NCBI RefSeq assembly: GCF_008806325.1
Contig: NZ_WACR01000003.1
Coordinates: forward strand, 124,001 to 188,000
Reading direction: 5' to 3'
DNA from: Salibacter halophilus
GTDB lineage: Bacteria > Bacteroidota > Bacteroidia > Flavobacteriales_G > Salibacteraceae
Length of the DNA: 64,000 nt
This document shows positions 19,451 through 57,789 of this stretch, piece after piece; the first letter of the stretch is position 1, and each line of letters begins with the position of its first letter. The notes beneath the pieces are model-generated. The model worked only from the letters and a program-made list of their open reading frames with translations. It was not told the DNA's origin and did no database searches. The translations under genes were made by a program, and so were the position numbers.

Positions 19451-21211
19451 TTATCGTTTAACCAATCGAATGGTCTGACTTTCATTGTTATCTGATGAAA
19501 TCGTGCAGAAGTAAAATCCGGCACTGCCTTCTAATTGAAGTGTGATAAAACGGCTATTGTTCAGCGTCTGTTGTTGTATTACCTGTCCGCTAATATTCGT
19601 GATTGTTATAGAAATATTTTGCAGTTCTTTTTCAAATTCCAGTGTAACTTCTCCCTGAGTTGGGTTTGGATAAACCGAATACATTGAAGAGTTAGAGTTT
19701 GTATTGAAGATTCCTGTTCCAATAACGGCTTCGCAACTTGAAGTATCTATACACCCATCAGTACTTTCAACAATCACAGCGTATTCACTACTTGAGGTTG
19801 CAGTAAATGACTGAGAAGTCTCATCAGAGAGCAGGGAATTATCGCTGCAATCGATCCATTGATAGCTCGCTACAGTTTGATTTGCATTTGCTTCAAGAGT
19901 AGAGTTTGTTGTACTTAAAGTGACATCAACCGCATTGATGGTTAAATCTAATGTTATAATTGAATCACACCCAGCAGCATTGACCAGAGTGTCAGTAGCC
20001 GTATTGTTAGAAGTAGTATAAGTATTTCCATCTATCCAGGTGTAACTGTCACAAGCTGTTTGCACATCGGTGAAAGATGTTGAGTTTAAAATAGTTAAAT
20101 CTAAAGTAACGATAGAATCGCATCCTGCAGCATTAACTATGGTATCAGTGGCCGAATTGTTGGAAGTAGTGTAAGTATTTCCATCTATCCAGGTGTAACT
20201 ATTACAAGCTGTTTGAACATCGGTGAAAGATGTTGAATTTAAAATTGTCAAATCTAATGTTATTACAGAGTCACAACCACTTGCATTTGTATAGGTATAC
20301 GTTGCCGTATTATTATTGCTCGAATAGGTGTTTCCATCAATCCAGGTATAACTTTCACATGCAGAAACCACATCAGTAGTCGCATCACTGTTGTTTACTG
20401 TTAGATTAATTGTAATAATACTGTCGCAACCAATCGAATTCGGAATAGTATCCAGGTGTGTACCCGAGTTATTAATTACAGCACCGGAAGGTGCCATATA
20501 ACTGTCACAAGTTGTAGGCGTGATAGATGAAGAAGTGTTGTTGCATTGTAACTTACCGCTGAGTAGAACATTATCGATTAACCAGGAATCAGATGATGAG
20601 CTCGAACGAGGTGTTATTCTGGCAGCAATTTGTGAAACACTACCGGGGAAACCAATTTGAACAAAACTAATTCCCTGAGTCATTTGCAGTCCACTACTTG
20701 TTGGTTGAAAAACGACTTCAGTGGCAGGGAGATAATCTACAACGGCACTCCCAGAAGCTGAATAAGGCCAGTAAGAGTTGTTTGAAGTAGCACCTCTAAC
20801 TCGTATTCTAGAAGTGAACGTTGTGCCACCGTCTGTGCTGTATTCAACAAGTACGTAATCCAAATTATCTGGTCCACCACCTGAACCATTGAGGTTCATT
20901 GCAGACAGCTGAAAACTGATAAAAACTGAATCGTAGCCACCTGGAATTGAAGTATTGTTAAAGGTTACCGTGTTTCCACTGGAAACAGAGGAAACATGCC
21001 AGGCTGTAGAGCCGGAAATACCTAATGGAGTGCCGGGAATGCTGGTTGCTGAGGAAGCAAACCCACTTTGTGTTCCTGCAAGAGAGCCTGTATAATTCCA
21101 GGTAGGTAATCCGCCATCAAAATCCTGAATAGCGATTGTGTCAATATTACTCTGTGAAAAAGCTGAGAAGTAGAGTAAAACGGTCATTGAAAATAGTAAT
21201 AGTTTTTTCAT
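19451..21211 (-). CDS. T9SS-secreted surface protein with four CDSY repeats
   Basis: 586 residues: signal peptide (1-20), a beta-sandwich of about 200 residues (22-220) like those of MAM/carbohydrate-binding type, then four tandem repeats of about 51 residues (224-428) with the pattern CxSYTWIDGNTY...GCDSIITLDLT, an Ig-like segment, and a T9SS type A sorting domain at the end (SVYPNPTQGEVTLEF ... RLVKR). Secreted through the outer membrane by the type IX system and likely attached to the surface. Ligand unknown. It is followed by a terminator at 19389. Confidence 0.85.
   Translation of the reverse strand: MKKLLLFSMTVLLYFSAFSQSNIDTIAIQDFDGGLPTWNYTGSLAGTQSGFASSATSIPGTPLGISGSTAWHVSSVSSGNTVTFNNTSIPGGYDSVFISFQLSAMNLNGSGGGPDNLDYVLVEYSTDGGTTFTSRIRVRGATSNNSYWPYSASGSAVVDYLPATEVVFQPTSSGLQMTQGISFVQIGFPGSVSQIAARITPRSSSSSDSWLIDNVLLSGKLQCNNTSSSITPTTCDSYMAPSGAVINNSGTHLDTIPNSIGCDSIITINLTVNNSDATTDVVSACESYTWIDGNTYSSNNNTATYTYTNASGCDSVITLDLTILNSTSFTDVQTACNSYTWIDGNTYTTSNNSATDTIVNAAGCDSIVTLDLTILNSTSFTDVQTACDSYTWIDGNTYTTSNNTATDTLVNAAGCDSIITLDLTINAVDVTLSTTNSTLEANANQTVASYQWIDCSDNSLLSDETSQSFTATSSSEYAVIVESTDGCIDTSSCEAVIGTGIFNTNSNSSMYSVYPNPTQGEVTLEFEKELQNISITITNISGQVIQQQTLNNSRFITLQLEGSAGFYFCTISSDNNESQTIRLVKR
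19928..20542 (-). repeat. Tandem repeats of about 153 bp inside the T9SS gene
   Basis: Four consecutive units code for about 51 residues each. The two central ones are nearly identical at DNA level, which indicates recent duplication; the first unit (in protein order) is clearly diverged. Each unit has two cysteines in fixed positions (TAC.SYTW and GCDS). Confidence 0.85.
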
Positions 21212-55104: not shown

Positions 55105-55626
55105 ATGATCACAATCATTTGCGGCACCAATCGCCCTCAAAATAATACAAGTATCATTGTTAAGGCTTATGCCGATATGTTGAAAAGTAAAGGAAATGCC
55201 ATTCAAATATTATCGATGGAAGATCTACCAACCGATTTTATTTTCAAAAATGAAGTGTTGGGTGGTGCAAGTGATAAAATGAAGAATATTGCTGAGCAGT
55301 ACATTGAAAAACCTGAAAAACTCGTTATTATCTCTCCGGAATACAACGGTGGCTTTCCCGGTGTGCTAAAATCCTTCATAGACTCTGTAGTTCCTCAGCT
55401 TTTCGAAAATAAAAAGATAGCACTCGTTGGTGTTGCATCGGGTAGGGCAGGTAACCTGCGCGGAATGGATCAACTCACAAATATCTTTCATTATTTAAAA
55501 GCGCATGTATTACCGCTCAAAGTACCGGTTAGCAGTATCAACAAATTGATCGAAGAACGCGAACTTACTGATGAGTCAACTAAAGAAGTTTTGACCAAGC
55601 AAATCGATCAGTTTTTAACCTTTTAA
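55105..55626 (+). CDS. NADPH-dependent FMN reductase
   Basis: 173 residues from the ATG at 55105; a TTG two codons upstream is less likely. Flavodoxin-like fold with the flavin loop CGTNRPQNNTS (about 6-16), SPEYNGGFPGVLKSFID (about 74-90) and GVASGRAGNLRG. Reduces free FMN or quinone/azo compounds with NAD(P)H in the cytoplasm. Its 3' end overlaps the convergent XRE gene by 12 bp. Confidence 0.87.
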   Translation: MITIICGTNRPQNNTSIIVKAYADMLKSKGNAIQILSMEDLPTDFIFKNEVLGGASDKMKNIAEQYIEKPEKLVIISPEYNGGFPGVLKSFIDSVVPQLFENKKIALVGVASGRAGNLRGMDQLTNIFHYLKAHVLPLKVPVSSINKLIEERELTDESTKEVLTKQIDQFLTF

Positions 55627-56094
55627 AGACGATGGCGTAAACTCCTCAAAAGTGTTATCACTGTAAAATACAACTACTTTCTCAATAGTCCGAACCGATT
55701 CCTGTTCGGGCTTTTTTGTTTGGTTATCAGTGTTTTGAGACTTTTCTGCATGCTCATGTGTAGTTTCGCTTTGACGTGTTACATCTGTATCTTTTTGCGA
55801 CTCCCCGCTCGTTACATCAGTATCACCTGCAGGTGTTACAATTGTATTCTCTTCTTCTTTTACACGCTTTTCTGATTCTGAAAGATCACCTTTTCCTGAT
55901 ATAAGCCAGTCGTAACTCACATCGGGGAATGCCTGTACGATTTTCATGACGAAGTCGAGGCTCGGTTTGTTTCTACCGCTTAATACATGGGAGATTCCAG
56001 ACCTTTGGACATCTAATATCTCTGCGAGTTGTGTAGCTGTGAGTTTCTTGAAGTGGAGGAGTATTCTTATCCTATCGTTGATTGTTGTCGTCAT
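55615..56094 (-). CDS. XRE-family regulator with operator-rich linker
   Basis: 159 residues from ATG 56094; an upstream ATG at 56124 is unlikely since the gap to it holds an operator dyad. HTH_3 domain at about 1-65 (LTATQLAEILDVQRSGISHV), an acidic, disordered linker (70-130) with DTDVT repeats, and a short C-terminal strand (VEKVVVFYSDNTFEEF-like). The DTDVT repeats are coded by copies of a GTTACAnnTGTATC dyad that also occurs at the start codon and twice upstream. Likely an autoregulated DNA-binding protein. Confidence 0.82.
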   Translation of the reverse strand: MTTTINDRIRILLHFKKLTATQLAEILDVQRSGISHVLSGRNKPSLDFVMKIVQAFPDVSYDWLISGKGDLSESEKRVKEEENTIVTPAGDTDVTSGESQKDTDVTRQSETTHEHAEKSQNTDNQTKKPEQESVRTIEKVVVFYSDNTFEEFTPSSLKG

Positions 56095-56289
56095 GTTACA
56101 AATATAACAATCGTAAGTAAACAAGCAGGAACATTTATGTTACAGATGTATCGTATTTAGTTTAGTGGAAAACGTCTTTTTGCCAAAAACAGCTTCCTCT
56201 ACAGTTATAAATCACTTTAGGTAAAATAAATTAATGCTCTGGAATATAGTTTGTTAAAGATATAAATTGACACGTGTTACAACTGTATC
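55778..56289. repeat. GTTACAnnTGTAWC dyad sites around the XRE gene
   Basis: Exact GTTACAnnTGTATC copies lie at 55778-55791, 56139-56152 and 56276-56289. One-mismatch forms lie at 55811-55824 and 55835-55848, and GTTACAAATATAAC (one mismatch to the full palindrome) at 56095-56108, directly before the XRE start. Three are inside the coding sequence and three upstream. The core TACAnnTGTA is dyad-symmetric, as expected of an operator for a dimeric HTH protein. Confidence 0.65.
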
Positions 56290-56391
56290 ACCCTAAAGAT
56301 TTATTCGTAAATGGAGTTTTTTAATGGATTGAGAACAAAGAATGGTATGGGATTTGGATATTGTATATTTGTTCGCATAACCTAATACATA

Positions 56392-57789
56392 ATGAATAGG
56401 AAATATCTCTTTTTGGCTCTGACCGTGATAAGTCTTTTGACCTGGCAGTGTACGGGGTCAAAATCATTGTCGCGCAAGGCTGATAAGTTACAGGAAGCCG
56501 GCTTAAATGAAGAAGCGGCAGACTTCTATTACAAATCCCTGCAACGAAATCCACGAAATGTAGATGCAAAAATAGGACTCAAACAAACAGGAAAAGAAAT
56601 ACTTGAGTCTCTACTCAATGAGTTCTACAAATCCTATTCTGCTGAGGATCACCGCATGGCTGTCTATAAATACCGCGAAGCAAAAGACTTTCAGGACATG
56701 TGCTCGCCATTTGTAGATCTTCAAATTCCTCCGTACTACAACGATTACTACGAAGAGTCTGAAACGACTTACAAAAATGATCTTTACGAAAAAGCGAACG
56801 AACTTATTTACGAGGAAAAGTACCAGGAGGCAGACAAAAAGTTGAAGGAAATCATCGACCTCGATCCAACTTACAAAGATGCTAAGGAACTCGCGTCAAT
56901 GACTACAGCCGAGCCGATGTACCAAAAGGGAGTAAAACTCTTTGAAGCCGGTAAATACCGCGAATCATATGCGATGATGAAACGCGTGATCGATCAAAAA
57001 GGATCTTACAAGGATGCAATCGATTACCGTGACAATGCGCTTGAAGAAGCAACGATCACAATTGCTGTGAGTCCGTTTGATGTTTCGAATAGTAGTCAGA
57101 GCCAAATTGCAGAAAAGATCAACGGTAGCATCACGCAATCGCTTGTAAACTCTGAAAATCCGTTTATTAAAGTTGTTGATCGAAGCAATACAGAAAAGCT
57201 CCTCGAAGAACAGCGCCTGAATATGGAGCTGGGTACTGAATCCCGTGTTCAGGCCGGTGAAATGCTGGGTGCTAACATGATTATCACAGGTAAAATGATG
57301 GATTATCAAGTGAGCAGTGTTCCGGTTCAAACATCAAGGCAGCCGGCATTTGAGCAAATTAAAGTACAAAAAGTCAACCCGCGGACTAAAGAGAAATACG
57401 TTGCAACTGAATACCGTAAGACTTATTACAACGAATATTCCGGTAGTCGAAAAGTCACGGCTGCTCTCCAGTACCAGGTTATCAATGCCGAGACCGGTGT
57501 GGTTGTTTCCGGAGGTGTGATCAACGAAACCGAAATGGACAATGTCAATTACGCTACTCGAAAAGGTGGCTTTAAAAACCTTTATCCGGGCGAGTTTAGC
57601 AGCTCGCTTGGCGGATTGATGAAAGAGGGCAAGGTGATCACATCTTACCAGGCAAAAAGCCAGCTACAAAGTAAGTTTACGTCTTCAAAACGCGAGTTGA
57701 GATCAGAAAATCAAATACGTGCAGATCTTGCACAAAAAATCGCTCAAAATATTGTGAGCAAAGTTCACGAATACAATCCTGAATTATGA
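56392..57789 (+). CDS. CsgG/LpoB-like lipoprotein with TPR N-terminus
   Basis: 465 residues. Lipobox LTWQC (cysteine about residue 20), TPR-like helices (about 27-215), then a CsgG/LpoB-type domain (about 220-440; VVDRSNTEKLLEEQRLN, GANMIITGKM) as in curli-export pore proteins and penicillin-binding-protein activators. The signal peptide codons (LALTV) contain a GGTCAGADCC copy at 56415. Overlaps the LPP20 gene by 4 bp. The curli partners CsgA/E/F are not in the window, so a pore function is uncertain. Confidence 0.78.
   Translation: MNRKYLFLALTVISLLTWQCTGSKSLSRKADKLQEAGLNEEAADFYYKSLQRNPRNVDAKIGLKQTGKEILESLLNEFYKSYSAEDHRMAVYKYREAKDFQDMCSPFVDLQIPPYYNDYYEESETTYKNDLYEKANELIYEEKYQEADKKLKEIIDLDPTYKDAKELASMTTAEPMYQKGVKLFEAGKYRESYAMMKRVIDQKGSYKDAIDYRDNALEEATITIAVSPFDVSNSSQSQIAEKINGSITQSLVNSENPFIKVVDRSNTEKLLEEQRLNMELGTESRVQAGEMLGANMIITGKMMDYQVSSVPVQTSRQPAFEQIKVQKVNPRTKEKYVATEYRKTYYNEYSGSRKVTAALQYQVINAETGVVVSGGVINETEMDNVNYATRKGGFKNLYPGEFSSSLGGLMKEGKVITSYQAKSQLQSKFTSSKRELRSENQIRADLAQKIAQNIVSKVHEYNPEL

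Follow-up and report, generated by a model that had tools for sequence, protein, structure and literature searches.

The window, that is, the whole 64,000-nucleotide stretch of Salibacter halophilus DNA analysed here, contains on its minus strand a gene for an XRE-family regulator (P0001). Six near-palindromes with the core TTACAnnTGTAA are located in and around this gene within positions 55778-56289: three in the coding region, one adjoining the ATG and two upstream. All six had been placed here by a preliminary description of this DNA, and all were found again. The features of the locus are as follows.

55615..56094, minus strand: gene of the XRE-family regulator P0001, 159 aa, stop codon included, ATG at 56094-56092, Pfam HTH_3
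55894..56094, minus strand: N-terminal helix-turn-helix (HTH) domain, residues 1-67 (AlphaFold model, pLDDT mostly >90; Foldseek)
55696..55887, minus strand: disordered linker, residues ~70-133 (pLDDT ~50 in the model), holding the three coding-region sites
55639..55677, minus strand: C-terminal beta-hairpin KVVVFYSDNTFEE, residues ~140-152 (model and conservation)
55835..55848, minus strand: coding-region site 1, AATACAATTGTAAC, codons 83-87 (NTIVT)
55811..55824, minus strand: coding-region site 2, GATACTGATGTAAC, codons 91-95 (DTDVT), 24 bp from site 1
55778..55791, minus strand: coding-region site 3, GATACAGATGTAAC, codons 102-106 (DTDVT), 33 bp from site 2
56095..56108, minus strand: promoter/start site, GTTATATTTGTAAC, adjoining the ATG, position shared with homologue loci L005, L006 and L007
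56099..56106, minus strand: TATATTTG, match to the -7 box TAnnTTTG, inside the promoter/start site, 4 nt before the ATG
56139..56152, minus strand: upstream site, GATACATCTGTAAC, at a spacing of 44 bp from the promoter/start site
56276..56289, minus strand: distal upstream site, GATACAGTTGTAAC
56364-56371, plus strand: TATATTTG box before the divergent lipoprotein gene, not covered by a dyad
56392..57789, plus strand: divergently oriented gene for a TPR/CsgG- or LpoB-like lipoprotein; L005, L007, L008 and L009 also have a divergent homologue

P0001 scored 35.4 bits against Pfam HTH_3 (PF01381; cut-off 23), and the choice of ATG is backed by the relatives L005-L007, in which the ATG likewise follows directly after a site. 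The Foldseek neighbours of the HTH domain, whose recognition helix reads VQRSGISHVL, included P22 c2 and 434 Cro (TM by target 0.83-0.85). The linker sequence was not conserved among homologues, and the C-terminal beta-hairpin is a possible oligomerisation element. The Pfam matches of P0001 were confined to the HTH, with neither the S24 peptidase domain of LexA/cI-type self-cleaving repressors nor the Penicillinase_R winged-helix domain (PF03965) of CopY/BlaI/MecI among them, and the RstR phage repressor model NCBIfam NF041951 gave 30.4 bits (curated cut-off 80). Within the window, the neighbours of P0001 comprise lipoproteins together with frames assigned from sequence as ParA/ParB-like and FMN-reductase-like; the divergent lipoprotein gene may be a second target of the regulator.

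Exact matches to the extended motif GTTACANNTGTAWC are located at 55778-55791, 56139-56152 and 56276-56289, and one-mismatch matches at 55811-55824, 55835-55848 and 56095-56108; the two upstream sites stand at -57 and -194. The three exact copies had been described as clustered at this locus, and a search of the organism's own genome (3.12 Mb) returned these three only. With up to one mismatch, the window held 10 strand-matches, all in the cluster, where dinucleotide shuffles gave 0.51 on average (maximum 4), whereas counts over the whole genome were at the level of a reversed-motif control (23+27 versus 25+27). Chance clustering of the dyads is ruled out by the shuffles, the genome counts and the site densities given below, and a dispersed repeat or a genome-wide regulon in this genome is ruled out by the control-level counts. 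Two details of the preliminary description required correction. The site assigned to the start codon does lie at the gene start, but it ends one base before the ATG and does not cover it; and of the three coding sites said to write DTDVT, two do so, whereas site 1 writes NTIVT. Relative to the class consensus the coding sites of the window gene are imperfect (two with one mismatch, one with two). Given its own protein sequence, the window gene alone has 2 core sites (at most one mismatch) versus 0.115 expected (P = 0.0045); this excess is modest, and it is the comparative data that carry the case. As a separate observation, the sites at 56139, 56276, 55778 and 55811 (minus strand) share GATACAnnTGTAAC, an asymmetric form (GATACT in one of them), in identical orientation, and 55774-55791 and 56272-56289, flanks included, match at 17/18 bases.

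Homologues were collected across class Bacteroidia. A scan of a whole-genome collection found 204 relatives, of which 80 were kept and all named ones were Bacteroidota, and 107 genomes in a sample of 395 from the class had a strong match; 154 loci were oriented and reduced to 100 that were non-redundant (<65% identity). At least one site was present in 96/100 of these loci, and core matches with at most one mismatch were grouped next to the gene almost throughout. Site densities, calculated with a weight matrix built on upstream sites, were 10.6 per kb in the first 350 bp upstream of the gene (partly by construction) versus 0.11-0.12 per kb in distant flanks, 1.05 per kb in the linker (not by construction), 0.32 per kb in the HTH-coding part and zero in the C-terminal part. 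The neighbouring gene is an M14 peptidase gene in Flavobacteriaceae, the TPR/CsgG-like lipoprotein gene in the window family, and in Bacteroidales a gene for either a 2-oxoacid dehydrogenase E2 or DUF1015; an AsnC-type regulator also occurs among the homologue neighbours. Since the neighbouring genes differ between lineages, the sites follow the XRE gene, as would be seen for an autoregulatory operator. A QRS/GRS recognition helix was found in 64/78 loci with at least three sites versus 6/22 with fewer (P = 3e-6, kinship uncorrected). As binder of the dyads, the XRE protein itself is the most straightforward candidate.

The arrangement of the upstream sites was regular. For pairs 15-60 bp apart, 141/209 adjacent upstream sites were at 23-25 bp (62) or 33-36 bp (79), with preferred spacings of 24 and 34-35 bp; the two classes are about one helical turn apart, an offset suggesting that adjacent dimers are held in a fixed geometry. 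The sites also coincide with promoter elements. The sequence TAnnTTTG is the sigma-A -7 promoter box of flavobacteria and other Bacteroidota, placed at -12 to -5 (PMC9723704), and the proximal site holds it in forward orientation in 77/91 loci. In the outermost distal site it was reverse in 40 and forward in 4, as expected for a divergent promoter. Only the XRE-gene copy of the two TATATTTG boxes in the window lies under a dyad. With that box 4 nt before the ATG, and the box at -12 to -5, the transcription start would fall on the ATG or right beside it, suggesting that the XRE gene mRNA may be nearly leaderless. A near-dyad, TTTACAATGGTAAA, lies across the start codon (position -5 relative to the ATG) in L022 and most Flavobacteriaceae loci; it takes in both the ATG and GTA, the second codon (the protein begins MV).

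Each of the six homologues in the window family (L004-L009) had linker sites, L006 being marginal with a two-mismatch site only, and elsewhere coding sites occurred in L101, L120, L147, L148 and L159 (at least five lineages), together with weaker ones. Perfect high-scoring coding sites were found in L007, L008, L009, L101, L148 and L159. The preliminary description had placed the coding sites in a disordered linker, which the structure prediction bears out. All linker sites with at most one mismatch (18/18) were in frame 0, giving xTxVT, because in frame 2 the core TAA is a stop and in frame 1 the site encodes Tyr and Cys; the frame 0 product suits a polar linker. Shuffling the order of linker codons reduced the 18 sites to 1.66 (maximum 6), and synonymous-codon shuffling of the whole gene reduced 22 sites to 5.66 (maximum 13). 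Two further weak matches, in L108 and L126, were out of frame and are probably due to chance. Identity among the window-family proteins is 31-49%, with linkers that do not align, and the peptides at the sites vary (NTIVT, DTDVT, DTSIT, VTDVS, NTSVT, GTIVT, VTNVN, VTNVT, VTTVT). In the T.V[TSN] peptides of this family, Val was encoded by GTA in 11/13 cases (23% under genome-like usage), and ACA and GTA were both present in 9/13 versus ~8% expected (kinship uncorrected). Homologues keeping the peptide with varied codons had been named as the outcome that would speak against internal operators; the opposite was found, with linker residues varying and the ACA..GTA codons kept. Spacings of coding-site pairs (24, 33, 36, 45, 57 and 66 bp) were all multiples of 3 and fit the upstream grammar. 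Reverse TAnnTTTG was seen in 10/22 coding sites, none of them in the window gene; an internal antisense promoter was rejected as its explanation, as the bias is likely due to AAT (Asn) being better tolerated than TTT (Phe).

Mapped on the protein tree, presence of coding sites takes 5-7 changes, of which well-supported branches force at least 3, and the number of independent gains is uncertain. Coding sites occurred in 0/52 loci with at least two distal upstream sites versus 12/42 without (P = 2e-5), and 2 of those 12 are the out-of-frame loci L108 and L126. The distal cluster goes with a divergent neighbour (48/68 versus 4/25), a link that may explain part of these counts. A tree-based test of the swap yielded 5 independent pairs only (median p 0.5) and had no power, so the exchange of distal upstream for coding clusters is a lead only. 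Tentatively, and with somewhat more doubt than belief, we propose that in a class-wide family of autorepressors some of the operators have repeatedly been shifted into the coding region of the gene itself, with the linker as landing place and with spacing and the genetic code dictating xTxVT, and that the coding cluster stands in for the distal upstream one wherever the upstream neighbour is too close or there is no divergent promoter. Perfect core sites in L153 and L155 lie downstream of the gene, ~516-653 from the ATG, and represent another placement of a second cluster.

We consider it probable that the gene encodes an autorepressor whose HTH dimers, on arrays of dyads, cover its own promoter, and that this is reinforced by further sites, which in some lineages include those in the coding region; binding, repression and the contribution of the coding sites are what we infer from the arrangement described above. 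Dimers of the 434/P22-type HTH domain would bind the 14-bp dyads arrayed around the gene; 434-type repressors use dyads of this size. Binding at the proximal sites, over the -7 box, would block initiation, and this promoter occlusion is the step of the proposed mechanism that the sequences support best. Extra sites at the helically preferred spacings (24 and 34-35 bp) would strengthen repression through cooperative binding. In most Bacteroidia the second cluster is located upstream, often across the promoter of a divergent gene, whereas in the window family and several other lineages the extra cluster is located within the gene, where protein bound in the linker region could form an elongation roadblock and/or anchor a loop to the promoter cluster. 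The coding sites may thus serve as a roadblock, in looping to the promoter cluster ~240-370 bp away, or in plain cooperative stabilisation. The earlier reading of a repressor gene with internal operators is upheld in part: across class Bacteroidia the dyads track the gene through different neighbourhoods, the coding sites fall in the predicted disordered linker, and the site-forming codons are kept where linker residues vary. Binding of the dyad by the XRE protein, repression, and looping or a roadblock are its putative parts; the -7 boxes under the proximal sites and the reading frame as the reason for the constant xTxVT were absent from it.

The closest precedent for this autorepressor is C.Kpn2I, the controller of the Kpn2I restriction-modification system, which has a site in its own gene, where it stalls elongating RNA polymerase and limits its own synthesis (PMC6237814). 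P0001 likewise is a regulator of XRE fold, with predicted sites inside its own coding region; however, the array described here has multiple sites, which cover the promoter and also reach deep into the gene, and the disordered linker of P0001 is absent from the small C-proteins. P0001 was rejected as a restriction-modification C-protein, there being no restriction endonuclease or methyltransferase genes next to it in the window or among the homologue neighbours read. The phage 434 and P22 c2 repressors resemble P0001 in their HTH fold and in 14-bp-class dyads forming small arrays over divergent promoters, whereas P0001 is chromosomal, has a linker and a short beta-hairpin instead of a self-cleaving C-terminal domain, and has sites that reach into the coding region. 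The operator core of CopY/BlaI/MecI, TACAnnTGTA (PMC7253601), is alike, but these are winged-helix proteins (PF03965) and P0001 has HTH_3 only; the likeness is likely a convergence of the DNA motif.

It is nevertheless conceivable, though unlikely, that some other regulator, such as a BlaI/CopY-type winged-helix repressor, binds the dyads and the XRE gene is only a target. TACAnnTGTA does lie within CopY-family operators (PMC7253601), the genome encodes one BlaI-family protein (at C1:56143), and some Flavobacteriaceae genomes exceed the control 2-3 times in motif matches. However, the BlaI locus itself has no core match at fewer than 2 mismatches, and BlaI was rejected as the binder since the motif was not found there; the motif count in the organism's own genome is that of the control, the motif follows the XRE gene as neighbourhoods change, and its presence correlates with the XRE recognition helix. 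The upstream sites could also be true operators and the coding sites relics or by-products of tandem duplication with little function, which we regard as improbable. Small duplications could produce the in-frame 33-bp and 24-bp spacings, most homologues have no coding-region site, so that such sites are not needed for basic function, and for other factors most intragenic sites of the E. coli type have no known role. Against this, coding sites recur in at least 3, probably 5-7, separate lineages, are kept between proteins that are only 31-49% identical and have non-aligning linkers, and in the six loci listed above are perfect and high-scoring, which counts against relics. That the coding sites are a protein-level repeat, with xTxVT needed in the linker and operator likeness arising from codon preference by coincidence, agrees with the recurrence of xTxVT in always one frame and with the limited excess in the window gene given its protein (P = 0.0045), but is very unlikely, as the dyad also stands in non-coding upstream DNA, residues 1, 3 and 5 vary freely while the two codons are kept, the peptide is absent from most homologues that keep upstream dyads, and the coding-site spacing is that of the upstream arrays.

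If the autorepressor reading is true, the locus would provide a clean comparative bacterial case of regulatory DNA dictating protein sequence, in which the operator, its spacing and the reading frame, and not protein function, determine the residues of a disordered linker. It would also name the operator, the binding-domain family and the spacing rule of an apparently undescribed, widespread Bacteroidota autoregulator, and would offer a natural system in which synonymous recoding alone separates promoter blocking, roadblock and looping. Autoregulation from within a gene is already known; in the open-access literature no description was found of this operator with an XRE regulator in Flavobacterium, or of sites in array form, their placement in a linker, their fixed reading frame and their recurrence.

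Two further observations were made away from this locus. In genomes G104, G280, G255 and G139, matches to DTTACANNTGTAAH were two to four times those of the reversed control, so some Flavobacteriaceae may have a larger regulon or further regulators that use this motif. Within the window, near-identical 14-mers of the GTTACACCTGGATA type are located at 20033-20046, 20186-20199 and 20339-20352, exactly 153 bp apart, a period that suggests a 51-residue repeat protein.
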